IMG/VR virus record: IMGVR_UViG_3300049811_000649
Coordinates: 1 to 42,959 of that record
Reading direction: 5' to 3' (one strand)
Source: a virus
DNA: 42,959 bases
Shown: piece by piece, positions 4,434-29,732 of the stretch
Position numbering within the stretch: the first letter of the stretch is position 1
How the letters are laid out: each line of letters begins with the position of its first letter
Program-made: the position numbers and the translations under genes
The notes under the pieces: model-generated
Database searches by the model: none
Told to the model about the DNA's origin: nothing
The model's input: only the letters and a program-made list of their open reading frames with translations

Positions 4434-4896
4434 AGCTAGGGAATTTATTGGGACTCCTTACGTCCACCAGGGTCGAGTCAAGGGGGCGGGAATAGATTGC
4501 TGCGGCTTGATTATCGAAGTGGCCAAAGAGTTGGGGCTATCCGATTACGATGTGACGGGTTATTCCCGTTTCGGGGATGGGGTCGATTTTTTACAGGAGT
4601 TTTTAGAGCAGTGCAGTTTGAAGGGTGCAGGGGGTGCAGGGGAAGCAGGGGAAGCTCCCTCCGCTTCCTCCGCTCCCTCCGCCTCCTCCGCTCCCTCTGC
4701 ACCTCTTTTTGAGCCAGGAGATATTTTGATTTTTGCCATTCGTCGCCGCCCCCAACACTGTGGGATCGTGGCAGAATTAAATGGGAATCTTTCCCTGATC
4801 CACGCTTACACGGCGATCGGTCGCTGTGTGGAGCATAACCTTGATCGAGCGTGGAGCGATCGCATTATTCAAGTTTTTGAGTTTCCTAATGTTTAG
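4405..4896 (+). CDS. NlpC/P60 tail-tip peptidase with repeat insertion
   Basis: A 163-residue cysteine peptidase of the NlpC/P60 family, GTG start at 4405. The N-terminal IIAKAREFIGTPYVHQGRVK and GAGIDCCGLIIEVAKELG contain the catalytic Cys (about residue 33); the His is in RRPQHCGIVAEL (about residue 118), and a later polar residue follows in LIHAYTAIGRCVEH. In GTA-like tails this enzyme sits at the tail tip and cuts peptidoglycan peptides during entry. Between Cys and His there is a low-complexity GAGGAGEAGEA then PSASSAPSASS stretch encoded by a palindromic repeat at 4624-4703. It lies in a surface loop between catalytic elements, so the fold may tolerate it. The end overlaps the next gene by 8 bp. 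Confidence 0.85.
   Translation: MSKKEQIIAKAREFIGTPYVHQGRVKGAGIDCCGLIIEVAKELGLSDYDVTGYSRFGDGVDFLQEFLEQCSLKGAGGAGEAGEAPSASSAPSASSAPSAPLFEPGDILIFAIRRRPQHCGIVAELNGNLSLIHAYTAIGRCVEHNLDRAWSDRIIQVFEFPNV
4624..4703. repeat. 80-bp imperfect palindrome inside NlpC/P60 gene
   Basis: The left half is purine-rich with GGTGCAG and GCAGGGGAAGC units; the right half is the pyrimidine-rich counterpart ending in CTGCACC. The outer arms GGTGCAG (4624-4630) and CTGCACC (4697-4703) are perfectly complementary. The insertion keeps the reading frame and encodes Gly/Ala/Glu then Pro/Ser/Ala repeats. It resembles G-rich minisatellites common in cyanobacterial intergenic DNA. Confidence 0.75.
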
Positions 4897-6433
4897 CGAA
4901 GAGCGCCTCGATCTTGGATACGACTACGGAACGGTGGTAACGATCGCCGCTAAAACTTCGATTGTAGAAAGGGGCAACGGACGGGAGCAAAGGACGATCG
5001 ACTGGCATCATCCCTTACTGACTTTTAATGTGGGGCAGTACAGCACGATCAACGAACAGTTAGAATATTTTATTAACTTCCACAGAGCGAGGAAGGGAGC
5101 CTTTGAGGGGTTTCGGTTTAAGGATTGGTCTGATTATTTGGTGGTAAATCAGTTCTTGGCGATCGGTGATGGGGAAGTGACGGAATTTCAACTTTACAAA
5201 ACCTATCAAGTTGGCAATTGGCAAGCGCACCGTCCCATCACCAAACCAGTGGCGGAAACCTTGAGGGTGTTTTTGGATAGCGTGGAACTCACCGAGGGCT
5301 GGGAACTTGATACCACGACGGGGATACTGACCTTTGATGAGGCACCCGATGGGGAAATCTGGTTTAGTTGCGAGTTTGACGTGCCAGTGCGGTTTACCGG
5401 GGACGAAATTAACTTGAGGTTTGAGGCTTACGAGCAGGGAACCCAAAATAAGATTTTTAATTGGGAGGGGTTGACCCTACAGGAAATCAGATTGCCATTT
5501 GGCAATATCCCCGTGGCTACGATTCCGCAAAATCTCGATCACCAGATTAATCTCGGTTACGATTACGGGACGGTAGGAGGTGCTAAGTTTTCCACTCGGA
5601 TCGATGGCAGTGCCAATGGTCAGGAAGTGCGATCGAGTAATTGGTCAAGTCCGAAAGCACGGTGGGAAATCGGTCAAAGAAGCTTGCTGCTTGAAGAGTT
5701 AAAATACCTGATTTCCTTGTTTCGAGTGGCCCGGGGTCGGGCTGTACAGTTTAGTTATCTTGATCGAGCCTCAGAAACCGTTTGTCCGGTTCGCTTTGGG
5801 GAAGATAATATCGCTTTTCGGTTTGATGCTTATGACCGCTTTACGGGAGCGGCGATTTTCAATTTGTCGGGAGTGCCGTTGGTGGGGCTGCCTTTTAATA
5901 ATTTTTTTGGGATTTTAAGCGGACTTCGCTGGGAATTTCCTTGTATTGGCAGCGTGCCAAATCGCCCAGACTTGTGCCAATGTCCTCAATCTGTCAATAT
6001 CGAAACGACGCTACAAGGAGACGATTCGTTTTATTTTGTGACCTTAAGATTTAGAGGCGTGGTTGAATTAAACAGCCATTATGAAAACGGTACGGCAGAT
6101 GGGTTTTTTCAAATTGGAGGAAATGTTGGAAGCGGAAATAATGCTCAAGGGCTTAACATTTACCGATTAACAATTTCCAATCCAGCGCAAATTTATTATT
6201 TAAATAGAGGTAACCCTGTGGCTGGAAGGTTAACTGCAATTGATTACTTGGTCACAATTCCAATTTACGGAAACGCCACTGTCTCTTTAGATGCTCTTGC
6301 GGATCCAGACTTTGGGCAACAAATTGGGTCACAAATTAACAACGCTTTAAATACTTTAATGCCTGGTGTCCCACCATTCCCAAGTGCTTTTAACGGGCAA
6401 TTTCTGCAAATGGACGTGGAAAACGTTGACTAA
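4889..6433 (+). CDS. Tail-tip protein with tandem DUF2460 domains
   Basis: A 514-residue protein, ATG 4889. Two copies of a DUF2460-like domain are visible: the first begins with LDLGYDYGTVVTIAAKTSI and the second, after residue ~230, with INLGYDYGTVGGAKFSTRI. Each continues through an RGxxQ/FxxxD pattern and a matching VPVRFTGDEINLRFEAYEQ / CPVRFGEDNIAFRFDAYDR block. DUF2460 normally occurs once, in ~200-aa GTA gp12-type proteins next to DUF2163 and NlpC/P60. The C-terminal ~140 residues (from about 375: NIETTLQGDDSFYFVTLRFR) are a different, beta-rich domain encoded by visibly more AT-rich DNA, possibly a receptor-binding or glycan-contact add-on. It converges with the minus-strand tail-tip gene, 86 bp away. 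Confidence 0.75.
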   Translation: MFSEERLDLGYDYGTVVTIAAKTSIVERGNGREQRTIDWHHPLLTFNVGQYSTINEQLEYFINFHRARKGAFEGFRFKDWSDYLVVNQFLAIGDGEVTEFQLYKTYQVGNWQAHRPITKPVAETLRVFLDSVELTEGWELDTTTGILTFDEAPDGEIWFSCEFDVPVRFTGDEINLRFEAYEQGTQNKIFNWEGLTLQEIRLPFGNIPVATIPQNLDHQINLGYDYGTVGGAKFSTRIDGSANGQEVRSSNWSSPKARWEIGQRSLLLEELKYLISLFRVARGRAVQFSYLDRASETVCPVRFGEDNIAFRFDAYDRFTGAAIFNLSGVPLVGLPFNNFFGILSGLRWEFPCIGSVPNRPDLCQCPQSVNIETTLQGDDSFYFVTLRFRGVVELNSHYENGTADGFFQIGGNVGSGNNAQGLNIYRLTISNPAQIYYLNRGNPVAGRLTAIDYLVTIPIYGNATVSLDALADPDFGQQIGSQINNALNTLMPGVPPFPSAFNGQFLQMDVENVD

Positions 6434-6519
6434 TAAGGTGCGAGGCAATTTGTGAATCGGTTGAGATTTTGAGCGTGGTGCCGGTTTAGTTTGTACTCAA
6501 CGAATTTAACCCAAAACCA

Positions 6520-9500
6520 TTAATTTCTGCTTAAGTTAATAGTATTTATTTGAGATTGTGTAAGTGCGTAATCGCACACAAAAACGTTAGAGAGATTAAA
6601 ACTGTTTACACCAGCCCCCGAAAAATAGCCAAAATAAAACTTGTTTTGAGCATTAATTGAATTTATGTTATTCCCATTAGTTGATGAAGTAAGCACTGAT
6701 AATCCGTTAAGATAAATTGTTAATTGAGTGTCATTTAAGGTCAAGCATAAAAAATTTAATTCATTTAAAAATATTCTTGCGCTTGAATTATAAAAAGCAA
6801 CATTTTGTGACAAGGGTATTAAAAAATTACCAGCCCCACTTAAATTGGGGTTATTTCCAATAAATAAATTTATTTCTGCTCGAATTCCTCTGATTAATAA
6901 ACTTGCTCCAAAAACGCGCCCAAGAATTGAGTCGCTGTTTAATCTAATTAAAGCACCAATAGTAAAACTGTTAGAAAAAACATAATTACCTATTAATTGA
7001 GTGCTAAGTTCTGAAGGATTAAATTGTACGCTTTTCCCTTGTCCAGATGCAAGTAAAGAAGATTGATTTAATATGTTATTAACTCCCACGCTAGGATAAA
7101 CCAAATTTTCTCTACTGATTTGATCTACGGCTGTATTGCCGCTAGTTTCTTCTAATAGATAATAAGATATTGGATTAATAGAAAGTATTGTATTGGCAAA
7201 GTTACTAGACAAGGGCGGACCTTGTACATTGTTACTTATTTCGATTGTTATCCCTACATTGAGACAGCTATTTGAAGTAATCGAGATAAACTGAACAAAA
7301 TTATTAGGTTCAACTGTATTGTTATTAGTAAGACTAACTTTGTTTAAAACTGTCCCTACAGCTAAATTGCTTAAAATAATCGTGTTCTGCACACTAATAT
7401 TTACAGTGGCATTGCCAGAAGAACTTCTTACCGCAACACTATCGATCCGATAGGGAAATGCTGCTGCTACATCAAGCCAATATGGTTTGTTTTCTAATAC
7501 GTCAATGTGGCGAGTAATAAAAGTTTTATTACTACTATGTTGATTGTTTTCAGGTACTGTCAGACCTTGAACGATCGTGAAATCAACGGCGCTCACCCCG
7601 ACCCCCAAGGGAGCGGTGACTTTGATTTTGCCTGTGGTAGTTCCCGTGGCCACGACGGCGGTAATCGTGGTGTCGTTGACGACGGTGAAGCTTTGAGCGG
7701 CAATCTCGTTAAAACTAACGGCTGTGGCTCCCGTGAAACCCTGTCCGGTGATAGTGACTGTTATGCCCACCGCTCCCTGACGGGGGGAAAAATCGTTAAT
7801 GACCACCGTAAAAGCTTTCCCCTCAAAGACGATAATCACCGGATCCACGTCGTCTAGGGTTTGCCCTGGGGTGATCGCTTTAAAGTAGAAAGTTTTCCCG
7901 ATGTCTGTCCTTTGTACCGGGATATTGAGCTTATAGCCAGAGAGCAGGTAAAAATCTTCCCCCGCCCCGTGGGTTTGGGGTGTGCCACTGATTCCCCTAG
8001 TGAAGGGCGCGGTTAGCTGAAATATCCTATCGGTTCCCGATGTCCCCGTCAGAGCGGCATTTTGAAAGTCGAGGATTTCGTCCCCAATTAAAGCCCGATT
8101 GCGACCGGCTTCAAAAAGCGCTGAACTGATCGAGGACAGAGAAGCGTGGAAAGGGACTTGAACAGTGACGCTAGTGCCGTTAAAGGTGGTGGTACAAGTG
8201 CCGAAAACGCTTCGGGTAACGATCGTCCCCACGGGCTGATAGGTGACTCCTAGATCGATCGAATAATAAAGAAAAGCATTCCGCCATGTGGCATCGCCGT
8301 CGGCAAAAACGTAAAGCCCCGGGGTATCGGTGGGATAAGCGAGGGGAATATCCAGCACTCGCAGATCCGTCTCTGCCGGAACTGGGAGCGGGGTATCGGT
8401 GACGGGGGGTATGGGGTCGGGAACTGGTGAGGGTTCGTAGTCGGGATCCGTCTCGATAATTTCGGTGTTGTCCCACCCGTAGATAGCGGGGTTATAAAGC
8501 CACGATTTGACTAAAAGCAGGTGATTCGCCCCATATTCAAGCTGATTTATCTGTACCTGCTGAGGATTGCCCGCTATCTCCACTTCTACCACGTCGCCTA
8601 TCTCTAAATTGGCAAATCGTGGCGAAAGGGCGAATTCTTGAGTATAGGCGCGCGTCCAGGTTAGCCAGAGATTTTTGTTGACAATATCTTGCGCTTGGTT
8701 ACGGGAAAGCGCACCGGGATAATCAACGGTTTGGAGGTTGACGTGGGTAGCGGTGGGATAGGAAGGCGATCGAATGACGGCTTCGAGAAGGTTGTTATCC
8801 ACGTCAAAAAACCGAGCCTCGATCTGGGTCGGGAGTTCTGTCACTTCCTGACGGCTTTCTCGGTAGCGCCGGGGAACCTGTTCTCCCGACTCATGGGCTG
8901 CCAGTTCGGAGTTAGGCAACAATAAGCCCGCGGGTCGAAATTGGTTTTGAAATTTTAGTTTTTCGCCGTCATCAACTAAATCGAAGAAATATGCCTGCTG
9001 TAATTTGGATAAGGCTTCGGTAATAGTGGTTTGATTATCGATTTGGTAGCCCGTGACGATAATCTGGTCTAATTCGTCAGTATCTAAATCTTCAATGGTT
9101 AAATAGGGTGATTCCAAGCAAATATCTTGAATTACCGTGCTTAATGGTACGTTATCCCCGTTTCTGACCAGCGCCGAACACTGGGGGTACTGATTGTTAA
9201 ATTCGGCTAGGGGTAAATTTTCACAGACTAAAATTGTTCTATTGCGGTAAGCGATCGCTCGGTCGTTTAATTTAACTTGGAGCAGGGAATCGATCTGCTG
9301 ATTGTCCGTGCCGTTATAAATTCGGAAAGTACAGCCGCTACTGGACAAAAGGGGCGATAACTGCCCGTCTTTGTACACCAGTTTGCTGTTAAAGCGAATT
9401 TCGTCAATATTCGTGGTTTTGCCACAGAGGATAAACGCACAATTTCCCCAGTAGGTATAATTTACTTCCTCGGTGACGGTGGTGTTACTTCCGCCGCCCT

Positions 9501-9759
9501 TGCCCCCTTGGGTGGTTTCGGTGACGGTTTCCGAGACCCGTTCCTCTGGGGGAAAGTCGCCATAGATTAAGATTCCCCCCACCCGCGCCTTTCCCCAGAC
9601 CTTAGGAATTGAATCCCCAAAGCTTGATCGAGGGGTGACAAAATTCTCTATTTTTCCTTCTTCTACACGATTGACCGTGCGAATTTTCGCCGCAAAGAGT
9701 GAGGAGATGGCCGAAGCTCCAAGACTGACGGCTCCGGCGATTAAAGCACCTGTGGACAT
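6520..9759 (-). CDS. Tail-tip / host-specificity protein with TIG and LamG-like domains
   Basis: A 1079-residue protein on the strand opposite to the other tail genes. The N-terminus (MSTGALIAGAVSLGASAISSL) is hydrophobic and Gly/Ala-rich, as in many tail hub proteins. It continues with RSSFGDSIPKVWGKARVGG, WGNCAFILCG, an NIDEIRFN block and a Phage-tail_3/gpJ-like domain. A TIG/IPT fold follows (SPRQGAVGITVTITGQGFTG, about residues 650-735). The C-terminal ~230 residues (YYLLEETSGNTAVDQ, VQFNPSEL, FTIGALIRL, LTIYLNGLSVL) have the pattern of a concanavalin A-like LamG domain and are the likely receptor or glycan-binding tip. The DNA for that last part (6520 to ~7560) is markedly more AT-rich than the rest, suggesting domain exchange. 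Start ATG 9759. Confidence 0.78.
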   Translation of the reverse strand: MSTGALIAGAVSLGASAISSLFAAKIRTVNRVEEGKIENFVTPRSSFGDSIPKVWGKARVGGILIYGDFPPEERVSETVTETTQGGKGGGSNTTVTEEVNYTYWGNCAFILCGKTTNIDEIRFNSKLVYKDGQLSPLLSSSGCTFRIYNGTDNQQIDSLLQVKLNDRAIAYRNRTILVCENLPLAEFNNQYPQCSALVRNGDNVPLSTVIQDICLESPYLTIEDLDTDELDQIIVTGYQIDNQTTITEALSKLQQAYFFDLVDDGEKLKFQNQFRPAGLLLPNSELAAHESGEQVPRRYRESRQEVTELPTQIEARFFDVDNNLLEAVIRSPSYPTATHVNLQTVDYPGALSRNQAQDIVNKNLWLTWTRAYTQEFALSPRFANLEIGDVVEVEIAGNPQQVQINQLEYGANHLLLVKSWLYNPAIYGWDNTEIIETDPDYEPSPVPDPIPPVTDTPLPVPAETDLRVLDIPLAYPTDTPGLYVFADGDATWRNAFLYYSIDLGVTYQPVGTIVTRSVFGTCTTTFNGTSVTVQVPFHASLSSISSALFEAGRNRALIGDEILDFQNAALTGTSGTDRIFQLTAPFTRGISGTPQTHGAGEDFYLLSGYKLNIPVQRTDIGKTFYFKAITPGQTLDDVDPVIIVFEGKAFTVVINDFSPRQGAVGITVTITGQGFTGATAVSFNEIAAQSFTVVNDTTITAVVATGTTTGKIKVTAPLGVGVSAVDFTIVQGLTVPENNQHSSNKTFITRHIDVLENKPYWLDVAAAFPYRIDSVAVRSSSGNATVNISVQNTIILSNLAVGTVLNKVSLTNNNTVEPNNFVQFISITSNSCLNVGITIEISNNVQGPPLSSNFANTILSINPISYYLLEETSGNTAVDQISRENLVYPSVGVNNILNQSSLLASGQGKSVQFNPSELSTQLIGNYVFSNSFTIGALIRLNSDSILGRVFGASLLIRGIRAEINLFIGNNPNLSGAGNFLIPLSQNVAFYNSSARIFLNELNFLCLTLNDTQLTIYLNGLSVLTSSTNGNNINSINAQNKFYFGYFSGAGVNSFNLSNVFVCDYALTQSQINTINLSRN

Positions 9760-9804
9760 GGGGGGTTAGGGGATTGGGGAAATGGGGAGGTGGGGTAATG
9801 GGGA
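9760..9804. repeat. G-run tract upstream of tail-tip gene (G-quadruplex candidate)
   Basis: At least six runs of four or more G on the plus strand are separated by 3-5 nt immediately upstream of the minus-strand start at 9759. It could fold as a G-quadruplex on the template strand, or simply be a cyanobacterial G-rich minisatellite. No convincing promoter for the tail-tip gene is visible here. Confidence 0.6.
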
Positions 9805-9832
9805 GAAGAAATAAAAGCTAATAGCTGACTGC

Positions 9833-9881
9833 TGATAGCTGATAGCTGATAGCTGATAGCTGATAGCTGATAGCTAAAAAG
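9833..9881. repeat. Seven perfect tandem copies of heptamer TGATAGC
   Basis: Seven exact consecutive TGATAGC units span 49 bp, flanked by degenerate AGCTAATAGC and AAAAGCTAAC. This is the style of the short tandemly repeated heptamers (STRR) described in cyanobacteria. It fills the spacer between the integrase stop and the tail-tip start. The copy number is likely to vary between strains by slippage. Confidence 0.9.
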
Positions 9882-9894
9882 CTAACTGTACTAC

Positions 9895-10950: not shown

Positions 10951-10964
10951 CGGTTTTCGTATTT
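10849..10964. repeat. 116-bp direct repeat, copy 1 (integrase 5' end)
   Basis: Positions 10849-10964 are identical to 11649-11764, offset exactly 800 bp. The repeat holds the last five codons and stop of the small membrane gene and the first 34 codons of int. The two copies bracket one repressor cassette. Confidence 0.95.
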
Positions 10965-11527: not shown

Positions 11528-11545
11528 ATTTTAACACTTCAATAG

Positions 11546-11567: not shown

Positions 11568-11615
11568 TTACAATAGCAATTTTTTTTAAAAACGGCACGG
11601 TTGTTTAAATTTTCT

Positions 11616-11764: not shown

Positions 11765-11768
11765 ATTG

Positions 11769-14589: not shown

Positions 14590-14918
14590 AGAAACTGGTG
14601 GTTACTCCTGAGTTACAAAAAAAGGCGACTGATTGGGTAGTTGGGCTAAAACGGGCGATTAAGCGCAAAAACGCCAATAACGTAGCCAAGCGTTACAAAT
14701 ACGAAAATACCTATCTCCCCGATATTGCCGAAAACCTCAAAGAAGACGACCTGATCAAGTTCAGCCCTCAACCCAACGCTTCTGTATCGATAGTCCTGGG
14801 TATCGAAAACCCGATTCAGGGGCGACTAACTTTAAAGCTTCAAAAGAAAACCAACGGTGAGATTTTCTACCATCCCACCCCGACAAACCGAACATTTTGG
14901 AAACAACGGGAAGAATAA
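14586..14918 (+). CDS. Hypothetical early protein
   Basis: A 110-residue protein; ATG 14586 overlaps the preceding stop (ATGA) and is preceded by a GGATGGG stretch. The N-terminal half is basic and helical (ELQKKATDWVVGLKRAIKRK), the C-terminal half looks beta-rich (ASVSIVLGIENPIQGRLTLK). A nucleic-acid role is possible from the charge, but no family is recognised. The TAATG overlap couples it to the DUF3102 gene. Confidence 0.55.
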   Translation: MKKLVVTPELQKKATDWVVGLKRAIKRKNANNVAKRYKYENTYLPDIAENLKEDDLIKFSPQPNASVSIVLGIENPIQGRLTLKLQKKTNGEIFYHPTPTNRTFWKQREE

Positions 14919-16117
14919 TGCAGCAACTAACCCTGTTTGACTATAACTGCCTTGATTCCCAGGTTCGGGAAGAAGTGCAGCAGAAAACCGAGGAGATAAA
15001 AACTCTGGTACGGCGTAGCGCCCAAGACGTTATCGACATAGGTGCAAAGCTGGTAGCGATCAAAGCCAAACTCGGTCACGGGTACTTTGGCAAGTGGCTT
15101 GAAGCCGAGTTTGGCTGGACGGATCGCACGGCGAGAAATTTTATCGCCGTTTACGAACGATTCAAAGCGGAAAAAATTACCGATTTAAACCTTTCTCCAT
15201 CTGTATTATACCTGCTGGCCGCCGATGCAACCCCTGATGAAGTCACGGCCGAGGTAATTCAAGCGGCAAAAGAGAAAAAGGTGAGCTTGGCTTACACCAA
15301 AGAACTGATTGCCAAGCACAAAGGAGAAGTCGAGGAAGTCGAGGAAGCTCCGAACACTGTAGAGGAAGCTCCGAACATTTTCGAGGAGGCTCCGAACACT
15401 GTAGAGGAAGCTCCGAACATTATCTTTATTGTTGGGGATAAAGTCCTCTGGCATGACCCCTTCACTAAACAAACCTACAAGGCCACGATCAAGCAACTGT
15501 TTAAAACCAGTGCCAAGTTAACCCTTGGCAATTTAGAAGTGGTCAAGGCAGATTTAGTTGATCTAAAAATCGCACCACCAGAACCCCCTCGCACCCCTCC
15601 GAAGCTTCCCGAACCGATAAGCTTTGATGAACCCAAATCATTTTCTTACGGCGATCGAGTGCTATGGGGTGACAAGTTTGCCAGTGTTCTCGACTTTGAC
15701 GGTCATAGCTGTTTATTGGCTATGGAAGAAACTGGGGTGATTTACCGCTCCCCTGCTGACAAATTAACCAAGCAAGATTCCGAAGCTGAAGCCTACATGG
15801 GATTTAAAGCCGGCGATGAAGTGGTTGTTCATAATTTTCAGGCTAAATACCTTTATCCCATTGGCTTGAACCACTGCTTTATAGATTTTTGCTTAAACAA
15901 TGTCGAGGTTGCTGGACGCACGGCACGCACCCATAAGGTTTTTAACTCTGAACTTAAAACCGAAACTCGTTTTCTGTCTGATTTACTGCGATCGCTTAAC
16001 GCTCTAAAAAAATCAGAGTTAGAGAAGGTGTTAGACACCTGCCTAGAAAAAATCGCTATGTGCGATGAGTCTAGCGTTACCGATTTACTGAAAAGAAAAC
16101 TTAAGGAGTCTAAATGA
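14918..16117 (+). CDS. DUF3102-domain protein with SH3-like repeats
   Basis: A 399-residue protein, ATG 14918. Residues ~20-90 (KTLVRRSAQDVIDIGAKLVA, LGHGYFGKWLEAEFGWTDRT, ARNFIAVYERF) match the DUF3102 helical domain found in phage and plasmid early proteins. A linker of four tandem 7-residue units (EEAPNTV/EEAPNIF) follows at about residues 142-169, encoded by 21-bp repeats. Then come two SH3/KOW-like segments (VGDKVLWHDPFTKQTYKATI; YGDRVLWGDKFASVLDFDG) and a C-terminal helical region. Its layout parallels the 16992 gene: helical domain, repeat linker, SH3-like part. Probable DNA-associated early function; exact role unknown. The stop overlaps the next ATG. Confidence 0.7.
   Translation: MQQLTLFDYNCLDSQVREEVQQKTEEIKTLVRRSAQDVIDIGAKLVAIKAKLGHGYFGKWLEAEFGWTDRTARNFIAVYERFKAEKITDLNLSPSVLYLLAADATPDEVTAEVIQAAKEKKVSLAYTKELIAKHKGEVEEVEEAPNTVEEAPNIFEEAPNTVEEAPNIIFIVGDKVLWHDPFTKQTYKATIKQLFKTSAKLTLGNLEVVKADLVDLKIAPPEPPRTPPKLPEPISFDEPKSFSYGDRVLWGDKFASVLDFDGHSCLLAMEETGVIYRSPADKLTKQDSEAEAYMGFKAGDEVVVHNFQAKYLYPIGLNHCFIDFCLNNVEVAGRTARTHKVFNSELKTETRFLSDLLRSLNALKKSELEKVLDTCLEKIAMCDESSVTDLLKRKLKESK
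15341..15424. repeat. Four 21-bp tandem repeats in DUF3102 gene
   Basis: Units at 15341, 15362, 15383 and 15404 encode EEAPNTV, EEAPNIF, EEAPNTV, EEAPNII. Units 1/3 and 2/4 resemble each other most, so the block probably arose by doubling of a two-unit pair. Confidence 0.9.
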
Positions 16118-16768: not shown

Positions 16769-16995
16769 TGCAGCGAATTAACATGATGCAGATTAAAGAC
16801 CTAAAACCCTACGATCAAATCGTTTTAGAAAACGATCAACCAAAAGTTGACTTCCGAACGGTTGACAAGCTTGTTCCTTCAAACTTGCCTGATTGGGTGT
16901 TTATTTACCTAGTAGGAAAAAGCACCCCTGAGTTACTACGTTGCGAGCAAGTTCTTTCCCCTAAAAATTCAGTTTGGCTGAAGGAGCAGCCATGA
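16768..16995 (+). CDS. Small hypothetical early protein
   Basis: A 75-residue protein starting in the TAATG overlap. The pattern IKDLKPYDQIVLENDQPKVD followed by VFIYLVGKSTPELLRCEQVL looks like a small beta-barrel (SH3-like) domain, as in the neighbouring DUF3102-type proteins, but this is only an impression. Its stop overlaps the next start (ATGA at 16992-16995). Confidence 0.5.
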   Translation: MQRINMMQIKDLKPYDQIVLENDQPKVDFRTVDKLVPSNLPDWVFIYLVGKSTPELLRCEQVLSPKNSVWLKEQP

Positions 16996-18260
16996 AAAGA
17001 GCCGTCGTAGTTGATCGAGAAATTACTCATCAAGAGGTTTTTAACCTTATAGAGTCACGGTCGGGCATTTCCAGTGTAGAAATCGCCATGGAACTAGAGT
17101 CAAACGTCCCTGTGGTCAAGAAAATAGTCACGGAAATCGAGGCAGCAGGAGTAATTTACCAAAAAGCAGAGGAATGGTACAAAATCGATGACGGAATTGA
17201 CAATGATGCGAGCGGAACTAATTCTCCTCACGTTCAAGCTCAATCTCTTGATAATTTACCAGTTACTTATCGATCCAATCGACAAAAGCCAATCGATCAA
17301 AGTCCTAAAGCTGCACTGGCAAACGATAGATCTGCGCTATCGACTCAAGAGACTCTTACAGACGACGAAATCAAGAAGCTCCTCTGGCTCGAACGCAAAA
17401 TCGAAAGGGGGTTCTATGAAGCGGGCAAAGCTTTAAAAGAGATTCGGGATAGCCGTCTCTATCGCAGTAATTACCGAAATTTCAACGAATACCTTGAGGG
17501 TCGTTTCGGTTGGAAACGCAACTATGCCAATAAACAAATAGCCGCCGCCGAAATTTTCGACATTCTTGCTTGTACTACAGATGTAGAACAGGGTACCATT
17601 GGTACCCTTAGTGTCACACCAACTGGCACAGATGTAGAACAGGAGACCAATGGTCTCCTTAGTGTCACACCAACTGGCACAGAAATAGAAATGAGTCCCA
17701 TTGGTACCCTTAGTGTCACACCAACTGGCACACCAATTCTACCCAATAACGAACGTCAAGTTCGCCCCCTAAGCCAAATTGAACCCGAACTGAGAAAAGA
17801 AGCTTGGGAAGAAGCGGTGAGAGAAGCGGGGGGGAAAGTACCAAGCGAGAAAATCGTGCGGGCGATCGTCAATCAGCGAAAAGCCAAAGATATCTGCAAA
17901 GCTCCCAACCCTTTCCAAGTGGGGCAAGTCGTCACAGCCAAATTTAAAAAAGGATGGTTTGTGGTCAAAGACGCGGGCGAATTTTCCTGTACCTTAGAAT
18001 CCCCTACTGGGGAAAAAGTACAGGTTAATCACTTCGATGTGCGTTCTGTGGAACTGCCAAAAGAGCAGCGTGACTTCATGGTCAGCCTACAGGAACGATT
18101 AGCAAGCCTATGGCAAACCTGCGACGAAATCCCCAACTTACAGGAAAGCGCAACCGCTAAAGCAGTTATTGAGGCGATCGCTTTCAACTTAGGGGGCGGT
18201 TTTTTGAGTGAACTTCAAGAGCTTCTTTTAGACCTAATTGAAAAATCAGTGGAGTTTTGA
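16992..18260 (+). CDS. Winged-helix early protein with 17-residue tandem repeats
   Basis: A 422-residue protein, ATG 16992 (an ATG six codons upstream is possible). N-terminal winged helix (LIESRSGISSVEIAMELESN, VKKIVTEIEAAGVIYQKAEE). Next a helical domain (LLWLERKIERGFYEAGKALK, FNEYLEGRFGWKRNYANKQI) similar in layout to DUF3102. Three 17-residue repeats follow (...GTLSVTPTGTDVEQ...), then RPLSQIEPELRKEAWEEAVR, an SH3-like stretch (FQVGQVVTAKFKKGWFVVKD) and a C-terminal helical region. It is probably a DNA-binding replication or partition-like early protein; function not proven. The repeats are encoded by palindromic 51-bp units at 17577-17729. Confidence 0.65.
   Translation: MKRAVVVDREITHQEVFNLIESRSGISSVEIAMELESNVPVVKKIVTEIEAAGVIYQKAEEWYKIDDGIDNDASGTNSPHVQAQSLDNLPVTYRSNRQKPIDQSPKAALANDRSALSTQETLTDDEIKKLLWLERKIERGFYEAGKALKEIRDSRLYRSNYRNFNEYLEGRFGWKRNYANKQIAAAEIFDILACTTDVEQGTIGTLSVTPTGTDVEQETNGLLSVTPTGTEIEMSPIGTLSVTPTGTPILPNNERQVRPLSQIEPELRKEAWEEAVREAGGKVPSEKIVRAIVNQRKAKDICKAPNPFQVGQVVTAKFKKGWFVVKDAGEFSCTLESPTGEKVQVNHFDVRSVELPKEQRDFMVSLQERLASLWQTCDEIPNLQESATAKAVIEAIAFNLGGGFLSELQELLLDLIEKSVEF
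17577..17729. repeat. Three 51-bp palindromic in-frame repeats
   Basis: Units start at 17577, 17628 and 17679. Each contains a 7-bp stem with a 3-nt loop. In unit 1 the arms are GGGTACC/GGTACCC, in unit 2 GGAGACC/GGTCTCC: both arms changed together, so pairing is kept. Unit 3 has lost part of the pairing (GAGTCCC/GGTACCC). Each unit also holds a second potential hairpin, GTGTCA with TGGCAC, using one G-U pair. Confidence 0.9.
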
Positions 18261-18911: not shown

Positions 18912-19000
18912 CAAGAAAACAACTTTTTAAGGAAAAACTTTGACCTTTGAACCACAAAGCTTCAATTATTTCCATTATTTCCATCACTCTCATTATACCC

Positions 19001-20017
19001 ATGAGTAACCAAACAATTAGATCGAGAAGAAATCAGCCATTTATCTGGATTGATCTTGCTATAGACGATCTTGGTTTAACCGTGGATGAATTTCGCGTTT
19101 ACGTTCACCTGTGCCGGCGCGCTGGTAAAGATGGTAACGCCTTTCCTAATTACGCCTCGATCGGGGAGCATTGTTTTAGGGCTGATTCCCCTTCCGCTAA
19201 AAACGAAAGCCTTCGCCGGCGCGCAATCCGGACTGTAGCTAAATTACTTGAAAAGGGCTTGATAGGCAAAGGCGAACGAGTCGGCAATTCAGGTCAAGAT
19301 GTCAGTAATATCTACTGGATCAACGATTTAAAGGATTTTAGCAGTGACTCCCCAGTCACCCCCGCAGTGACTCCCCAGTCACCCCCCAGTGACTCCCCAG
19401 TCACCCCCCCAGTGACTCCCCAGTCACCCCTATATATAGAAATAGATCCACTAGAAACAGATCCAAATAAACACCCCCCTACCCCCCAAAGGGGGGATGA
19501 GAGCGAACCCGTAATCGCAGAATTAATTCTCGAATCGGAAAGCGCCGAACCGTATCTGACCACCGGCAAACTCTCGAAAGAAGCGGATCGAGAAAATTCA
19601 AATTTGGGAGAGGACAGATATTCCGCGCTCGCTCCCGTCGATCCGTTTTTAAACCGGCGATCAGGACTCTCCTATCAGAAAGAAAAAGCCCTTACCGAAT
19701 CGTTGGCTGGAAGTCCCTTTGAATCGATCGCCGAACAGGATGATTTTTATGCCAAACACCTCGACTACATCCGGGCTACTTCTCCAAAACTCGATCCGGG
19801 ACAAATCACTGGAATCGCTAAAGCATCGCTTAAAAGAATCATGGCTGGAATTCCCGATCCAGAAGATCGGCGCGTCCTTGTTCTTTGGCAGTCTGGGCAA
19901 TTAGGGAAATTTGAAGGACTTGAATACTCCAAAGAAGCGATCGACAAAGCTCAACGTCGGGCAAAAGGATTAGAAATTCTTGAAAAATTGGAAAAAGGAG
20001 AAGACTTATATGCCTAG
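19001..20017 (+). CDS. Replication initiator-like protein (winged helix)
   Basis: I take ATG 19001 (338 aa); an in-frame TTG at 18947 with AAGGA upstream is possible but would add a low-complexity Ile/Ser leader. The N-terminal ~120 residues look like a DnaD/RepA-type winged helix: FIWIDLAIDDLGLTVDEFRV, YVHLCRRAGKDGNAFPNYAS, RRRAIRTVAKLLEKGLIGKG. A Ser/Pro/Thr linker with two 15-residue repeats (SDSPVTPAVTPQSPP) follows, encoded by palindromic repeats, then a helical C-terminal domain (ILEKLEKGEDLY at the end). It overlaps the next gene by 8 bp, and together they resemble the initiator plus helicase-loader pairs of siphophages. Confidence 0.7.
   Translation: MSNQTIRSRRNQPFIWIDLAIDDLGLTVDEFRVYVHLCRRAGKDGNAFPNYASIGEHCFRADSPSAKNESLRRRAIRTVAKLLEKGLIGKGERVGNSGQDVSNIYWINDLKDFSSDSPVTPAVTPQSPPSDSPVTPPVTPQSPLYIEIDPLETDPNKHPPTPQRGDESEPVIAELILESESAEPYLTTGKLSKEADRENSNLGEDRYSALAPVDPFLNRRSGLSYQKEKALTESLAGSPFESIAEQDDFYAKHLDYIRATSPKLDPGQITGIAKASLKRIMAGIPDPEDRRVLVLWQSGQLGKFEGLEYSKEAIDKAQRRAKGLEILEKLEKGEDLYA
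19344..19427. repeat. Four palindromes in the replication gene linker
   Basis: GTGACTCCCCAGTCAC (6-bp arms, CCCC loop) occurs four times, at 19344, 19367, 19389 and 19412, with spacing 22-23 bp. The repeats encode the Ser/Pro/Thr linker. A cluster of spaced palindromes inside an initiator gene also fits an iteron-like origin, as in lambda O. Confidence 0.85.
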
Positions 20018-23460: not shown

Positions 23461-25291
23461 CGATCTTTGGTTGCCGCCCCCAACACTGACAATTAGTGAG
23501 TGGGCCGATCGCTATCGGGTTTTATCTTCCGAGGCAAGCGCGGAACCAGGAGCGTGGAAAACCTCTCGAATTCCCTACGCTCGCGAGGTGATGGACACAG
23601 TGGGAAAAAATCCTTACACGGTTTTTATGGCCAGCGCCCAGGTGGGTAAAACAGAAATTCAATTAAATGCGATCGGTTACTATATGAGCTTGGATCCTGC
23701 TCCCATTTTGCTGATTGAACCAACGGGGGAAATGTCGGAAGCAATTTCTAAGGATCGGATTGCCCCCATGCTACGGGACACTCCAATCTTGTCGGGGCTG
23801 GTTAAGGATCGACGGTCACGGGATGCCGAAAACCAAATTTTACATAAATCGTTTCCAGGTGGTCACTTAACTTTATCGGGGGCTAACTCTCCCTCCTGTT
23901 TGGCCAGCCGTCCGATCCGCGTGATTTTATTAGATGAAGTTGATCGTTACCCTAGTAGTGCTGGTTCCGAAGGCGACCCCGTGGATTTGGTTATCAAGCG
24001 ATCGACCACGTTCTGGAATCGGGTGGTATTTTTGGCTTCTACCCCGACGATTAAAGGAGTTTCTCGAATCGAGAAAGCTTGGGAATCAACGGATAAGCGA
24101 TATTATTTTGTCCCTTGCCCCCACTGCGGCCATCGTCAAAGGTTGATCTGGGAGCAGGTTAAGTGGCAAGAAAATAAAGAGATTGATTTGATAACCGCTT
24201 GGTACGAGTGCCAAAACTGTGGTGGTCGGATTACCGACGCTCACAAGCCGACGTTGTTGGCCCGCGGTCAATGGATAGCGACCAACCCCACCGCTTCCAT
24301 CCCTGGGTTTCATATTTGGGAAGCCTATTCCCCTTGGGTTAAGTTTGCCGATATCGTTCGGTCTTACTTGAAAGCCAAAGATGACAAACAACGCTTAAAA
24401 GTCTTCACTAACACTTCCCTCGGATTGCCTTTTGAAGAAGAAGGCGGGGAGAGTTTGCAGTGGCAAAAACTCCTGGCCAGATCGGAACCCTATCGGCCGT
24501 TACTTGTCCCGGACGGGGTAATGATTCTCACCGCCGGGGTAGATGTTCAGGGGAATAGATTGGTTGTTTCCCTTTGGGGGTGGGGAAAAGGAGAGGAAGC
24601 TTGGTTAATTTACCATGCTGAATTATTCGGCGATCCTCTGCTCGAACAGGTTTGGAGTGAATTAGGGGCAATTTTAGACGCTACCTATACCCACCCGAAA
24701 GGGGTAGAGTTAGCCGTTTCAGCCACGGCGATCGATTCGGGATTTTTACCTCAGCAAACCTATCAATTCGTTCGCAAGCGATCGCGCTGTTACGCCACTA
24801 GGGGGGCTAACGCTTCTAATCGGCCAGTGGTGGGACGGCCATCGCCCCAAGAGGTTAAAGGGAATAATGGCAAACCTTTAAAAAAAGGCGTGAGTTTATG
24901 GCCGATTGGTACAGATACGGTCAAATCTCTAATCTATAATCGGTTAAAATTAGTAGAACCGAGTGCTGGTTATCTTCACTTTTATCAAGGCTTAGAGGAC
25001 GAATATTTTGAGCAGTTATGTGCCGAAAAGGTGGTGACAAAATTTATTAAAGGCTTTCCCCGGCGCGAGTGGGTTAAAACCCGTCCTCGCAACGAGGCTC
25101 TAGATTGCTTAGTTTATGCCTATGCAGCCGCTTGTTTGACTGGGTTAGCGAGAATTAACTGGGATAACCTTGAAAAGTCGCTATTTCCCCCAGTAGTTGA
25201 CAAGAGCGAGGAAATTCCCCCACCAACCCCAGTGATTGCTTCTAAACCGTGGCTAAACAAAAGCTCTCGTGGATTTGTTAAAAATTGGTAA
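23408..25291 (+). CDS. Terminase large subunit (lambda GpA family)
   Basis: A 627-residue ATPase-nuclease, GTG 23408. Walker A-like ASAQVGKT (residues 75-82, K81), Walker B VILLDEVD (D176, E177), then FLASTPTIKG (motif III). Two zinc-knuckle pairs, CPHCGHRQ and CQNCGGRI, are inserted after ~residue 230, as in GpA proteins. The nuclease domain begins at LTAGVDVQGNRLVV (about residue 370) and includes the C-terminal NEALDCLVYAYAA. It cuts concatemers at cos and powers packaging into the prohead. Length is typical of GpA (~640 aa). It is followed 5 bp later by the connector gene. Confidence 0.95.
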   Translation: MKTLKIQKPSQIINQKINDLWLPPPTLTISEWADRYRVLSSEASAEPGAWKTSRIPYAREVMDTVGKNPYTVFMASAQVGKTEIQLNAIGYYMSLDPAPILLIEPTGEMSEAISKDRIAPMLRDTPILSGLVKDRRSRDAENQILHKSFPGGHLTLSGANSPSCLASRPIRVILLDEVDRYPSSAGSEGDPVDLVIKRSTTFWNRVVFLASTPTIKGVSRIEKAWESTDKRYYFVPCPHCGHRQRLIWEQVKWQENKEIDLITAWYECQNCGGRITDAHKPTLLARGQWIATNPTASIPGFHIWEAYSPWVKFADIVRSYLKAKDDKQRLKVFTNTSLGLPFEEEGGESLQWQKLLARSEPYRPLLVPDGVMILTAGVDVQGNRLVVSLWGWGKGEEAWLIYHAELFGDPLLEQVWSELGAILDATYTHPKGVELAVSATAIDSGFLPQQTYQFVRKRSRCYATRGANASNRPVVGRPSPQEVKGNNGKPLKKGVSLWPIGTDTVKSLIYNRLKLVEPSAGYLHFYQGLEDEYFEQLCAEKVVTKFIKGFPRREWVKTRPRNEALDCLVYAYAAACLTGLARINWDNLEKSLFPPVVDKSEEIPPPTPVIASKPWLNKSSRGFVKNW

Positions 25292-25296
25292 AAAAT

Positions 25297-25818
25297 ATGT
25301 CGTTTTTTGTCTTAAAAATCCCCCCTACTATTGTCTCTGGTGACACCGTTACCTGGATTGAAAGCTTGCCCGCTTACCCCCCCGATCTTGGTTGGGTTTT
25401 CGAGTATGTTTTACAGGGAGAAACCCCGATAACACTAACAGGAATAACCGAAAATAATGCCTATAAATTTACGATTGACACGGTTTTAGACCCTGGTTTG
25501 TACTACTGGCAAGCGCAATTAACTAAGGATGGCAGTCGTAACACCCTATCCTCTGGTCGCTTGCAAGTGTCAATCGATTTAAACACCGCTATTGATTACG
25601 ATGGGCGATCGCAAGCTGAGAAAGAATTAGAGGAAGTCAGGAAAGCGATCGACACAATTTACAAGGGTGGTCAATCGTACAAAATTAAAGATCGGGAGTT
25701 TACTAGGGGCGATTTAACGGCTTTAATTGCAAGGGAAAGTCAGCTAAAAGCGCAAGTGTGGCGGGAAAGCCAAGCTAATCTAGGAAAATCCCCTAATATG
25801 AAAGTGAGATTTCGTTAA
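25297..25818 (+). CDS. Connector protein, beta domain plus gpW-like domain
   Basis: A 173-residue protein, ATG 25297. The N-terminal ~105 residues are a beta-sandwich-like domain (PPTIVSGDTVTWIESLPAYP, LDPGLYYWQAQLTKDGSRNT). The C-terminal ~65 residues (AEKELEEVRKAIDTIYKGGQ, SYKIKDREFTRGDLTALIAR) follow the gpW/head-tail joining helix-hairpin-helix pattern. Lambda gpW is a small stand-alone protein between terminase and portal, and the position is the same here. The fusion with an N-terminal domain is unusual. TAATG overlap with the portal gene. Confidence 0.7.
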   Translation: MSFFVLKIPPTIVSGDTVTWIESLPAYPPDLGWVFEYVLQGETPITLTGITENNAYKFTIDTVLDPGLYYWQAQLTKDGSRNTLSSGRLQVSIDLNTAIDYDGRSQAEKELEEVRKAIDTIYKGGQSYKIKDREFTRGDLTALIARESQLKAQVWRESQANLGKSPNMKVRFR

Positions 25819-27317
25819 TGGCTAAGAAAAAGCGGAAAAACCAAGGGTCTGTTCGTCGTTACGATGGTGCTAGGCGCGATCGCTTAACGTCGGATTGGGC
25901 AACTTCTAGCACTAGCGCCGATTCGGAAATTTTTTCCGCTTTAAGGCTTTTGAGAGATCGTTCTAGGGATTTAGTACAAAATAACCCTTATTTAAAATCA
26001 GCCATTTACAAAACAATACCCAATAACGTGGTTGGCCAAGGTTTGAGTTTTCAAAGTCAGGTAAGGCGTAAGCGTATTGACAAACTTGACGACTCTGTAA
26101 ACACCCAAATTGAAGAGGCTTGGAAAGAATGGCAAGAAGAGCCTAAATGGTGTCACACGGCTGGGAAATTAAGTCTGTCGGAAATTGAACGTTTAGTAAT
26201 CAAAAGCTTAGTGGAATCGGGAGAGGTGTTAATCCGAAAAGTAAGTCAAGCGTTTGATGATTCGCCGGTTCCTTTTGCTTTGGAAGTAATTGAAGCCGAT
26301 CAACTGTGCGAAACCCACGCTTACAACAGTTACCAGGGTAATCAGGTAAAGATGGGTGTGGAATTAAACGAGTGGCAACGACCAATCGCCTATCATCTGT
26401 ATCCTTACCATCCCGGAGACAGTGGCTTTTTTAGAGCTAGTTACAACACCCGTTTGCTACGGGTGGAAGCAGAAGAAATCATCCATCTATTTATTAGCGA
26501 TCGCCCAGGGCAAACGAGAGGAGTACCTTGGGTTCATTCAACGATAGGCAAATTAAGACAATTAAACGGCTATGAAGAGGCCGAGGTAGTTGCCGCAAGG
26601 ATTCAAGCCGCTATCGCCGCTTTTGTGCAATCTCCTGACCCCGACAATTTAGCAAGTCCTCACCCAGAAACCGGCGAACGTTTGAAGGATTTAGAGCCGG
26701 GGGTAATCGAGTATTTAGCACCAGGGGAGACATTAGCGTCTTTTATCCCCACACGACCCAATCAAGGATTTGATGCTTTTGTCAGGGCGATGCTCAGGGG
26801 CGCAGCGGTATCCATGGGTGTATCTTACGAAGGCTTTACCGGCGACTTTTCTAATACTTCCTACTCAAGCGCTCGCACGGCTCTACTGTCTGAACGAGAT
26901 TGTTACAAGGTAATGCAAGCTTGGTTAATTCAAAATTTTCACCGGCCTATTTTTAAGGAGTGGCAACAATTGGCCGTTTTATCGGGAAGGCTGAATTTTC
27001 AAGATTTTTTTCAAGATCGTCATCGTTACTGCAAGCCTAAATTCACCGCGCGGGGTTGGGATTGGGTCGATCCCTTGAAAGAAACCAATGCCAACAAAGT
27101 GGCCGTGGAATCCGGGTTTAAAACCTTAACCGATATAGCGGCTGAATCGGGTCGTGATTTTGAGGAACTGGTAAAAACCCGCCGTCGGGAATTGGACTTA
27201 ATGGCCGCTTACAACATCAATTTTGATAGTCAGCCAAGCCCCCCAGAGCCTCTGATCTTAGATGAAAAATCATGGCGGCAAAAAAACCAACAGTTAGCAA
27301 TTAGGAGACAGCAATAA
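25818..27317 (+). CDS. Portal protein (lambda family)
   Basis: A 499-residue protein of the lambda-type portal family. Visible signatures: a basic N-terminus, RDLVQNNPYLKSAIYKTIPN, NNVVGQGLSFQSQ, VIEADQLCETHAYNSY, IIHLFISDRPGQTRGVPWVH, and RGAAVSMGVSYEGFTGDFSN followed by YSSARTALLSERDCYK. The dodecameric portal forms the DNA channel at the capsid vertex and docks terminase and connectors. Length fits (lambda gpB 533 aa). Its stop overlaps the protease-capsid start (TAATG). Confidence 0.95.
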   Translation: MAKKKRKNQGSVRRYDGARRDRLTSDWATSSTSADSEIFSALRLLRDRSRDLVQNNPYLKSAIYKTIPNNVVGQGLSFQSQVRRKRIDKLDDSVNTQIEEAWKEWQEEPKWCHTAGKLSLSEIERLVIKSLVESGEVLIRKVSQAFDDSPVPFALEVIEADQLCETHAYNSYQGNQVKMGVELNEWQRPIAYHLYPYHPGDSGFFRASYNTRLLRVEAEEIIHLFISDRPGQTRGVPWVHSTIGKLRQLNGYEEAEVVAARIQAAIAAFVQSPDPDNLASPHPETGERLKDLEPGVIEYLAPGETLASFIPTRPNQGFDAFVRAMLRGAAVSMGVSYEGFTGDFSNTSYSSARTALLSERDCYKVMQAWLIQNFHRPIFKEWQQLAVLSGRLNFQDFFQDRHRYCKPKFTARGWDWVDPLKETNANKVAVESGFKTLTDIAAESGRDFEELVKTRRRELDLMAAYNINFDSQPSPPEPLILDEKSWRQKNQQLAIRRQQ

Positions 27318-29233
27318 TGGTTACAACAGTTAACACCTTCCCGGTCAATAAAATAATGACGCGAGAATTTAGCGTCAAACTTTCACCCGTAGAAAATAAC
27401 AAAAACCTTTTAGAATTTTCTTTTTCCTCAGAAGAACCGGTGGATCGCTGGTTTTTTAAGGAAGTTCTTAGCCACGATCCAGAATCTGTGGATTTTAGTC
27501 GAGTATCGGGGATGAACTGGCTTTGGAATCACAATATGGATGTGGTTTTAGGTAAGGTTGAGAAGATTTGGTTAGCAGAGGATCGCCGCGCTTACTGTCA
27601 GGTGAGGTGGTCAAAAAAAGACTCGATCGCCGAATATCGTCAGGACGTGGAAGACGGCATTTTAACTAATGTTTCTTTTATGTACGAAGTTCAAGAGTAC
27701 GAGCGAATGGCAACGGGTGAAAAAGATGACGATTATCCTACCTATGTCGGGAAAAAGTGGAAAATTTACGAAGTGAGCTTAGTTTCGGTTCCAGCCGATG
27801 CAAGCGTGGGTATCGGTCGGGCGCTTCTTGAACCAGTCGCTCATGGGGGGAACCACGCTGGTTCGCTGTCCACATTTACTGTAGGAAAGCCGGAATCAGG
27901 AGCAACAGAAGTGACAGAAGCGGTAACTATTGAGCAAATCCGAGAACAGGAAAAGAATCGAGTTAAGGAACTTTTGGCAATTGGGGAATCTTTTAAGATG
28001 CCCGATCTGGCCACGCAATTAATTAACGACGGGACTTCCTTGGATAATGCCCGTAAAATATTCTTAGAAAAAGTTAAACCGGGGCAAGCACCGATCGCCC
28101 GTCCCGTTGATACGTCCCTTGGTATGAGCCACGGCGAACAAAAATCCTATTCACTCTTAAAAGCTTTGCGAGCGATCGCTTATGGCGGGAATTACCTCAA
28201 GGAAGCAAGTTTCGAGATGGAAGTCTCGGAAGCTTTAAGTAAAAAGATGGGTCAACCGCTTACCAGCGAGCGATCGTTCCTTTTGCCCGTGGGAGATTTA
28301 AAAGTAAATCCCAAGACTCAAAAACGGGATTCCCTGTTAGCAGGGACGGCTAACCTAGGGGGCAATATCGTTGACACGGATCTAAGGGAGCAGGATTTTA
28401 TTGAACTGCTCCGTAATCAAATGATGGTTCAGCAGTTGGGCGCTCGAATGCTCACGGGTTTAGTGGGGCCGGTAACAATTCCCACTCAAGCCACGGCTGG
28501 TCAGTCCTACTGGGTGGGAGAAGGTGAAGATGTGACCGAAAGTAATATGACTTTTGGTCAGATTTCTTTGGCTTTAAAGACCGTGGGGGCGATTCAACGC
28601 TACACCCGTGAGTTAATGATGCAATCTGATCTATCTGTGGAAAATCTTATCCGTGAGGATATTTCTCAGATTTTGGCTTTATCGTTAGATCGGGCGGCTT
28701 TAGCGGGAACTGGAACCAGCAACCAACCCCGGGGAATTCTAAATACTTCTGGTATTGGTTCTGTGGCTTTGGGAACCAATGGCGGTCAACCTACTTGGGC
28801 AGCGATAGTTAACGTCACCAAGGCGATTAAAAAAGCTAATGCCATGCTCGGAGAAATTCAATGGCTTGGTAACGCTGATGTGGAATCAAAACTGATGACC
28901 ACCCCCAAACAAGCGAGCGGCGTGGAAGGTAATTTTATTTTGTCTGACCCGGGTAACGGCGATCTGCGTTTACGGGGCTATCGTTTTTATTCTAGTGAGC
29001 AGGTTCCCAGTAACCTCACCAAAGGCACGGGGACGGGGTTAAGCGCCCTAATCGCCGGGGTTTGGTCACAGCTAATTATTGGCCAGTGGGGAGTTCCCGA
29101 AATTCAAGCGAATATCTACAGCGATCAGGTGTGGGGTTCGGGGGCGGTGTCGATTAGGGGGCTAATGTCCGCCGATATCGTTTTGCGTCACCGCCCCTCA
29201 TTTGCTGTTATCACCGATATGATTACCACTTAA
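27317..29233 (+). CDS. Prohead protease fused to HK97-fold major capsid protein
   Basis: A 638-residue fusion. Residues ~12-170 are an HK97 prohead protease (U35): SGMNWLWNHNMDVVLGKVEK (H72), TNVSFMYEVQEY (S120) and WKIYEVSLVSVPADASVGIG (E152). A variable, charged, mostly helical linker (~175-270, EVTEAVTIEQIREQEKNRVK) takes the place of scaffold/delta domain. From ~275 to the end is the capsid protein: RDSLLAGTANLGGNIVDTDL, ARMLTGLVGPVTIPTQATAG, LDRAALAGTGTSNQPRGILN, SIRGLMSADIVLRHRPSFAV. Protease and capsid are usually separate genes; fusions are known in some HK97-like phages. No stop or frameshift separates the parts, so self-cleavage should release mature capsid subunits. Confidence 0.92.
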   Translation: MVTTVNTFPVNKIMTREFSVKLSPVENNKNLLEFSFSSEEPVDRWFFKEVLSHDPESVDFSRVSGMNWLWNHNMDVVLGKVEKIWLAEDRRAYCQVRWSKKDSIAEYRQDVEDGILTNVSFMYEVQEYERMATGEKDDDYPTYVGKKWKIYEVSLVSVPADASVGIGRALLEPVAHGGNHAGSLSTFTVGKPESGATEVTEAVTIEQIREQEKNRVKELLAIGESFKMPDLATQLINDGTSLDNARKIFLEKVKPGQAPIARPVDTSLGMSHGEQKSYSLLKALRAIAYGGNYLKEASFEMEVSEALSKKMGQPLTSERSFLLPVGDLKVNPKTQKRDSLLAGTANLGGNIVDTDLREQDFIELLRNQMMVQQLGARMLTGLVGPVTIPTQATAGQSYWVGEGEDVTESNMTFGQISLALKTVGAIQRYTRELMMQSDLSVENLIREDISQILALSLDRAALAGTGTSNQPRGILNTSGIGSVALGTNGGQPTWAAIVNVTKAIKKANAMLGEIQWLGNADVESKLMTTPKQASGVEGNFILSDPGNGDLRLRGYRFYSSEQVPSNLTKGTGTGLSALIAGVWSQLIIGQWGVPEIQANIYSDQVWGSGAVSIRGLMSADIVLRHRPSFAVITDMITT

Positions 29234-29247
29234 TAGGAGGTGTTTCC

Positions 29248-29421
29248 ATGGCAGAAAAAACCGAAAAATACTTAGTCCGCGCTGGCTTTTCCCCCCAAAT
29301 TTCTAGGGGGCGAACCGTCCAAAATTTTGCAGCCGGCGATATTATTGATTTAACCGCAAGCGAGTATGAAGAAATTAAGCACATGATTGAACCAGTTAAG
29401 GAAATCAAGGAGGTTAAATAG
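29248..29421 (+). CDS. Small head protein (57 aa)
   Basis: A short ORF with an excellent ribosome-binding site (AGGAGG nine bases before ATG 29248). The sequence MAEKTEKYLVRAGFSPQISR, then GRTVQNFAAGDIIDLTASEY and an acidic-basic tail, resembles small head-completion or minor capsid-associated proteins located after the major capsid gene. Its stop overlaps the GTG of the next gene (TAGTG). Too short for a firm family assignment. Confidence 0.7.
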   Translation: MAEKTEKYLVRAGFSPQISRGRTVQNFAAGDIIDLTASEYEEIKHMIEPVKEIKEVK

Positions 29422-29732
29422 TGGATTTGATTCTTGTTAAAGTTAAGCCCAACTGTGCGATCGAACACGATGGCAAGGCTTACGGATCAGAGGATTTAGT
29501 CCAGCTGCCTAAGCAGTATCTTGGTTTTCACAACCAAAATGTTGAGGTAGCGGAAAATGCGGTCTTGGGGTCTCCCCAAGTAGAGCAATTTTCCAAGACA
29601 ACGGAAAATGCGGTCTTGGGGTCTCCCCAAGTAGAGCAATTTTCCAAGACAACGGAAAATGCGGTCTTGTCGGCAGAAGAATTATCGGAAGAACTAGAAG
29701 ACTCGGATACTTGGAGTTTTAAAAATTCCTAA
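29421..29732 (+). CDS. Small head-region protein with 17-residue tandem repeats
   Basis: A 103-residue protein, GTG 29421, AAGGAGG just upstream. The first ~44 residues (MDLILVKVKPNCAIEHDGKA, YGSEDLVQLPKQYLGF) form a small beta-rich domain similar in pattern to its upstream neighbour. The rest is two and one-third copies of a 17-residue unit (ENAVLGSPQVEQFSKTT) and an acidic tail (SAEELSEELEDSDTW). The repeats are encoded by palindromic 51-bp units. A role as a minor head or connector accessory is inferred from position. Confidence 0.65.
   Translation: MDLILVKVKPNCAIEHDGKAYGSEDLVQLPKQYLGFHNQNVEVAENAVLGSPQVEQFSKTTENAVLGSPQVEQFSKTTENAVLSAEELSEELEDSDTWSFKNS
29552..29669. repeat. 51-bp palindromic in-frame repeats (2.3 copies)
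   Basis: Units start at 29552, 29603 and 29654 (partial). Each complete unit has an inner hairpin CTTGGGG-TCT-CCCCAAG (7-bp stem, 3-nt loop) nested in an outer pair GGAAAAT/ATTTTCC. The unit length (51 bp) and inner stem size match the unrelated repeats in the 16992 gene. Confidence 0.9.

Follow-up and report, generated by a model that had tools for sequence, protein, structure and literature searches.

Palindromes within the coding sequence of a putative ParB-like protein from a putative cyanobacterial prophage as candidate binding sites of the encoded protein

The in-frame repeats of five genes in an IMG/VR virus record of 42,959 bp (the whole stretch analysed, hereafter the window) are best read as a mix of putative self-encoded binding sites and ordinary repeats. 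Judged from sequence, the protein of one of these genes, 16974, most likely targets palindromes that lie in the gene encoding it. We consider it quite probable that these palindromes are sites of their own protein with a likely ParT-like parS role, that those of the replication gene are iterons of the lambda-O type, and that the 29421, DUF3102 and NlpC/P60 repeats are separate cases. The initial annotation had placed all five repeats in a single family of small palindromic elements capable of in-frame insertion and multiplication. All five exist and all are in frame, but such a family was not confirmed, and one class of inserted elements was rejected in view of the conserved hinge site of the 16974 gene and the origin layout of the replication gene. 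In-frame insertion suits one of the five, the 29421 unit, and not the two best palindromic arrays (16974 and replication genes). The repeats of the 16974, replication and 29421 genes are palindromic; the NlpC/P60 repeat is an imperfect hairpin, and the DUF3102 array is non-palindromic.

Terminase, portal and capsid genes, the markers of tailed phages, were detected by a Pfam scan of the window proteins. The UbiA gene at the left end of the window shares 89-92% identity with seven genomes of one group, and the window therefore looks like a prophage in a putative Microcystis relative. Megablast against phage records returned no close relative of this phage, and its nearest terminase relatives share 47% identity.

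Hinge palindromes and the putative recognition code

The 16974 protein comprises, in order, an N-terminal winged-helix-like stretch, a predicted ParB/DUF3102-like HTH, a site-bearing hinge and a C-terminal region. The features of its gene are as follows:

16974..18260, strand +: family-A gene, likely ATG start at 16992
17349..17573, strand +: predicted DNA-binding helices, aa 126-200, pLDDT mostly >90
17514..17543, strand +: recognition-helix codons, aa 181-190; residues 183, 186 and 187 covary with site positions 3, 2 and 4
17577..17732, strand +: hinge array, 3.1 x 51 bp
17591..17607, unstranded: site 1, GGGTACC-ATT-GGTACCC, a perfect palindrome
17642..17658, unstranded: site 2, GGAGACC-AAT-GGTCTCC, both arms altered relative to site 1
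17693..17709, unstranded: site 3, GAGTCCC-ATT-GGTACCC, decayed
17736..17771, strand +: ILPNNERQVRPL motif, aa 255-266; residue 261 covaries with site position 7

Across the family, the hinge lies between the HTH and the ILPTSERQVRPL motif and holds 1-6 palindromes, mostly with an AAT/ATT centre, in almost all relatives; some homologs have no clear hinge palindrome. A perfect 7-3-7 palindrome stands at the identical hinge position in 66 of 88 homologs, and a further 13 of the 88 retain 6/7 stem pairs there. Perfect palindromes occur in 0.9% of hinges after codon shuffling, and at a rate of 0.5% in other parts of those genes. The palindromes occur in two reading frames (61 vs 18) and encode different hinge peptides (GTNGSQ, KVPPMVEV and TTNGCQ), indicating that the conserved thing is the nucleic acid. 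There are 32 distinct half-sites in the family, and half-sites differ by 0.58 of 7 bases within one gene versus 2.96 between genes.

The relationships between protein residues and site bases were learned on 57 non-redundant genes. In leave-one-out prediction, residue 183 gave site base 3 in 52/53 cases (R went with G in 30/30, and Q, S or D usually with C), residue 187 gave base 4 in 50/56, residue 261 gave base 7 in 47/53 (R with C in 32/32) and residue 186 gave base 2 in 40/55 (D tabulated with A). The top associations reached z values of 16-20, whereas the 95th percentile among C-terminal columns was 2.55. Raw column z-scores are inflated by shared ancestry, and weight was therefore put on how these columns compare with the C-terminal ones and on a held-out test. 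The held-out set comprised 21 genes from Cyanobacteriales, other phyla (Bacteroidota and Streptomyces) and IMG/VR loci; site strings were transcribed by hand, and homologs without a clear palindrome were excluded from scoring. In this set, 61/77 bases were predicted correctly, against a mean of 33 and a maximum of 51 in 20,000 shuffles. Positions 2, 3 and 7 were correct in 18/20, 18/20 and 17/17 cases, respectively, and position 4 did not generalise (8/20, equal to baseline). The recognition residues of a 16974-family protein appear to predict the site embedded in its own gene.

In the proposed mechanism, the HTH directly N-terminal of the hinge and the conserved ER/GQVRPL motif directly C-terminal of it would supply residues on both flanks that read the half-sites encoded by the intervening hinge codons. 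The targets in the window would be the in-gene palindromes GGGTACCATTGGTACCC and GGAGACCAATGGTCTCC. The hinge is probably disordered, and for this reason an in-frame change of copy number would be tolerated. A related code is known for ParB/Noc, in which the site is set by a recognition-helix residue together with a downstream Arg/Gly position, residue 201, whose R reads C at site position 6 (PMC7383237). R at residue 261 of the 16974 family likewise pairs with C near the site centre. Unlike the two fixed site types of ParB/Noc, the 16974-family sites are diverse and located in the gene itself.

Two readings of the palindromes other than as DNA sites of their own protein were weighed. Insertion and multiplication of small mobile elements, comparable to the Rickettsia RPEs and favoured by the initial annotation, is very unlikely for the 16974 gene. 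It is true in kind for the 29421 unit, which has dispersed copies, paired outer stems and some copies inside ORFs, whereas the 16974 palindromes vary in step with the protein and keep to a single conserved position in members from several phyla. A genome search for each unit, as the initial annotation had proposed, recovered dispersed copies of the 29421 unit but none above chance for the other two palindromic units: the 16974 unit had chance-level matches in 292 cyanobacterial genomes and none in plasmids, and the replication-gene iteron had no dispersed copies in plasmids, the 292 genomes or viral contigs. The 51-bp units of the 16974 and 29421 genes do agree in length and in the 7/3 stem-loop, as had been noticed, but share nothing else, and the likeness is coincidental on all later evidence. 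Selection for mRNA hairpins that act on translation or RNA stability is likewise very unlikely. Stems of 7 bp with a 3-nt centre could fold as RNA; however, many homologs have centres of 0-2 nt, G-T accounts for only 2/14 broken pairs where an RNA stem would favour G-U, and base identity tracks the recognition-helix residues. The case is also a warning that palindromic repeats within coding linkers need not be mobile elements.

Family distribution and the candidate role in partition

The 16974 family belongs to Cyanobacteriota, and related genes occur in Bacteroidota, Streptomyces and Mu-type phages. At E 1e-10, relatives were present in 69/340 Cyanobacteriales genomes; plasmid records with a relative numbered 83-92, and nearly all of those listed were annotated 'hypothetical protein'. 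An IMG/VR protein search with the single 16974 sequence returned no match, and a profile search of IMG/VR found eight distant loci. Single plasmids may hold several family-A genes. No copy of a gene's own palindrome was seen outside the family-A gene within up to 12 kb in six plasmids; in loci of about 2-4 kb only one such copy was found, 34 bp 3' of the stop codon (L175).

Five non-cyanobacterial plasmid homologs (Spirosoma, Emticicia and three Streptomyces plasmids) lie directly 3' of parA, each with one hinge palindrome of 14-24 bp. ParA was not found among the Pfam-scanned window proteins, and none directly adjoined the family-A gene in 5/6 cyanobacterial plasmid regions examined; one of the six regions carries a parAB pair about 2.5 kb from the family-A gene. 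The ParT protein of SCP2 is ParB-like, is without a CTPase domain, carries its 18-bp parS inside its own coding sequence and works with a cognate ParA; its listed relatives include Cyanobacteriota (PMC12260392). Set beside ParT by description, the 16974 protein shares the in-gene inverted repeat typical of ParT-type proteins and, according to Pfam scans, the lack of a ParB_N/CTPase domain, and it has a candidate ParB-like HTH. It differs in that the family has arrays of 1-6 sites, usually no neighbouring parA and, here, a phage location, and in that its sites vary greatly from gene to gene and obey a residue code that can be read.

The parA-adjacent plasmid homologs and the SCP2 precedent make a ParT-like centromere the likely role by analogy, with regulation as the main alternative. 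The protein would be a ParB-like loader without a CTPase domain, the in-gene palindromes would serve as parS, and the parS-bound loader would mark phage or plasmid DNA for partition. Because no ParA partner was found among the scanned window proteins, the protein is filed as ParT-like and not as ParT. The finding of no ParA in the window makes autoregulation possible, with self-binding used for an in-gene transcription roadblock or for silencing. We regard this as an appreciable but lesser possibility. It agrees with the cyanobacterial copies examined, most of which have no directly adjoining parA, with the several family-A genes that a plasmid may hold, with the small HTH regulator gene that adjoins some cyanobacterial copies and with the Mu-type phage homologs just upstream of a transposase. 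Against it stand the non-cyanobacterial plasmid copies directly after parA and the action of ParT with a cognate ParA (PMC12260392).

In structural comparison, the model of residues 129-304 aligned to the HTH region of Spo0J (1vz0) with Z 9.3 and 2.9 A over 111 residues, but helical folds give middling Z by chance and Raf1 scored higher. Raf1 (Z 12.2, but 4.6 A) was judged to share a helical arrangement and was rejected as a relative. A Foldseek search for the 16974 protein gave no significant match, no ParB was recovered when PDB sequences were searched with a profile, and a second structure prediction, of one domain alone, was poor.

If the self-binding reading holds, each gene would document its own target, and the many natural reader-site pairs would give a ParB-like DNA-binding domain a recognition code that can be put to the test. 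Such a code would predict centromere-like sites on plasmids and phages whose genes are now labelled 'hypothetical protein'. We lean slightly towards a broader picture of a multi-phylum family in which each hinge holds its own protein's site, reader and site move together and the code may be read from genomes alone; this pattern may extend to DUF3102 genes and O-like initiators.

Some further arrangements were observed among family-A genes. Two distant homologs (L321 and L322), with hinge palindromes of 16-18 bp, lie directly upstream of a Mu-type transposase gene. The long ORF at L320:1778-4876, which overlaps a reading frame like that of a cytosine methyltransferase, ends in a family-A domain; another such domain is found beneath a dcm-annotated gene in Gloeothece (plasmid hits H63/H106).

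The replication gene and its candidate origin

The palindromes of the replication gene are best read, by analogy, as iterons that give the initiator gene an internal origin of the lambda-O type. The features of the locus are as follows:

18947..20017, strand +: O-like replication initiator gene, PHROG 270 (replication initiation), HTH_36
19344..19427, unstranded: four inverted-repeat iterons GTGACTCCCCAGTCAC, 22-23 bp apart
19429..19475, unstranded: AT-rich tract, 32% GC (gene 47%, iterons 67%), predicted unwinding region
19437-19465: 15-bp direct repeat inside the AT-rich tract

The initiator gene has an N-terminal HTH, and four copies of the unit GTGACT-CCCC-AGTCAC are followed by the AT-rich tract. 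A homolog (L231) shares this layout with different sequences, having 5.5 x 22-23-bp iterons and then 15-bp AT-rich repeats. The ori-lambda iterons are located in the middle of the O gene, and in Stx phages the protein gains 13 residues from additional iterons (PMC7466680). The window gene resembles lambda O in its mid-gene inverted-repeat iterons followed by an AT-rich tract, and in lambda-type O the iteron number alters protein length; unlike lambda O, its iteron sequence is unrelated, and the initiator is related only at PHROG level. The initiator would bind its own in-gene iterons by the same logic as the 16974 protein.

Dispersed and simple repeats

The remaining three repeats are located as follows:

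4405..4896, strand +: NlpC/P60 gene
4624..4703, unstranded: imperfect GA/CT-rich hairpin in the NlpC/P60 linker
14897..16117, strand +: DUF3102-domain gene
15341..15421, strand +: 21-bp direct repeats GAGGAAGCTCCGAACAYT, non-palindromic
29421..29732, strand +: small gene 3' of the capsid gene, its tail holding the dispersed element
29549..29669, unstranded: cyanobacterial REP-like palindrome, two full copies and a 17-bp partial copy

The 29421 array (2.3 x 51 bp, stem CTTGGGG-TCT-CCCCAAG) is best read as an ordinary host repeat insertion, and it comes closest of the five to what the initial annotation had in mind. Its unit is a complete dispersed palindrome found in at least 118 stretches; among the matches listed, the records are cyanobacterial by title and the best dispersed copy agrees at 50/52 bases. 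The outer stems of the copies covary, their pairs being complementary at 91-100% and of many types, and 9/81 copies lie inside long ORFs. The unit is seldom found in the genomes closest to that of the host, and in the literature surveyed it was not printed for bacteria or phages. The comparison with homologs lacking the repeat, by which insertion boundaries were to be defined, yielded no clean empty site, as the tails differ among the neighbours of capsid homologs and no boundary results. In-frame insertion of the unit into a disordered tail is plausible. GTAG-type cyanobacterial REPs are dispersed palindromes (PMC3733652), and the 29421 unit is like them in being dispersed, in having GTAG beside the stem and in occurring sometimes inside genes. 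At L080 and L083, one REP-like copy seems to have been inserted within another copy's loop, an arrangement from which insertion boundaries might be read exactly.

The DUF3102 array (3.8 x 21 bp) is best read as a simple repeat expansion and a separate case. The 21-bp core AAGCTCCGAACAYT occurs with the same period in a host-group genome, where it lies in another frame within a Schlafen/AlbA_2 gene (L378:1501-1599), and also in 23 IMG/VR contigs (L379-L401) in unrelated genes, differing reading frames and short ORFs; the surveyed literature did not print the 21-bp unit for bacteria or phages. A palindrome with arms of at least 7 bp and varying stems follows the HTH, at nt ~290, in 12 of 21 DUF3102 proteins (the window copy included among the 21; L296-L315), against chance rates of 2.2% in shuffled sequences and 1.5% elsewhere. 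The window copy has no post-HTH palindrome.

The NlpC/P60 repeat, which had been described as an 80-bp palindrome, proved to be an imperfect hairpin with 24/38 ungapped pairs, and its folding energy is -49 kcal/mol compared with -32 +/- 3.6 for codon shuffles. Its matches are weak and mostly on Nostoc plasmids, and a weak case can be made for an inserted GC-rich cyanobacterial repeat. By eye, the NlpC/P60 linker hairpin resembles a GC-rich repeat in the tail of a capsid-downstream small gene of L316, an apparent counterpart of the 29421 gene. An intergenic AGCTGAT heptamer is repeated 8.6 times at 9816-9875 of the window.
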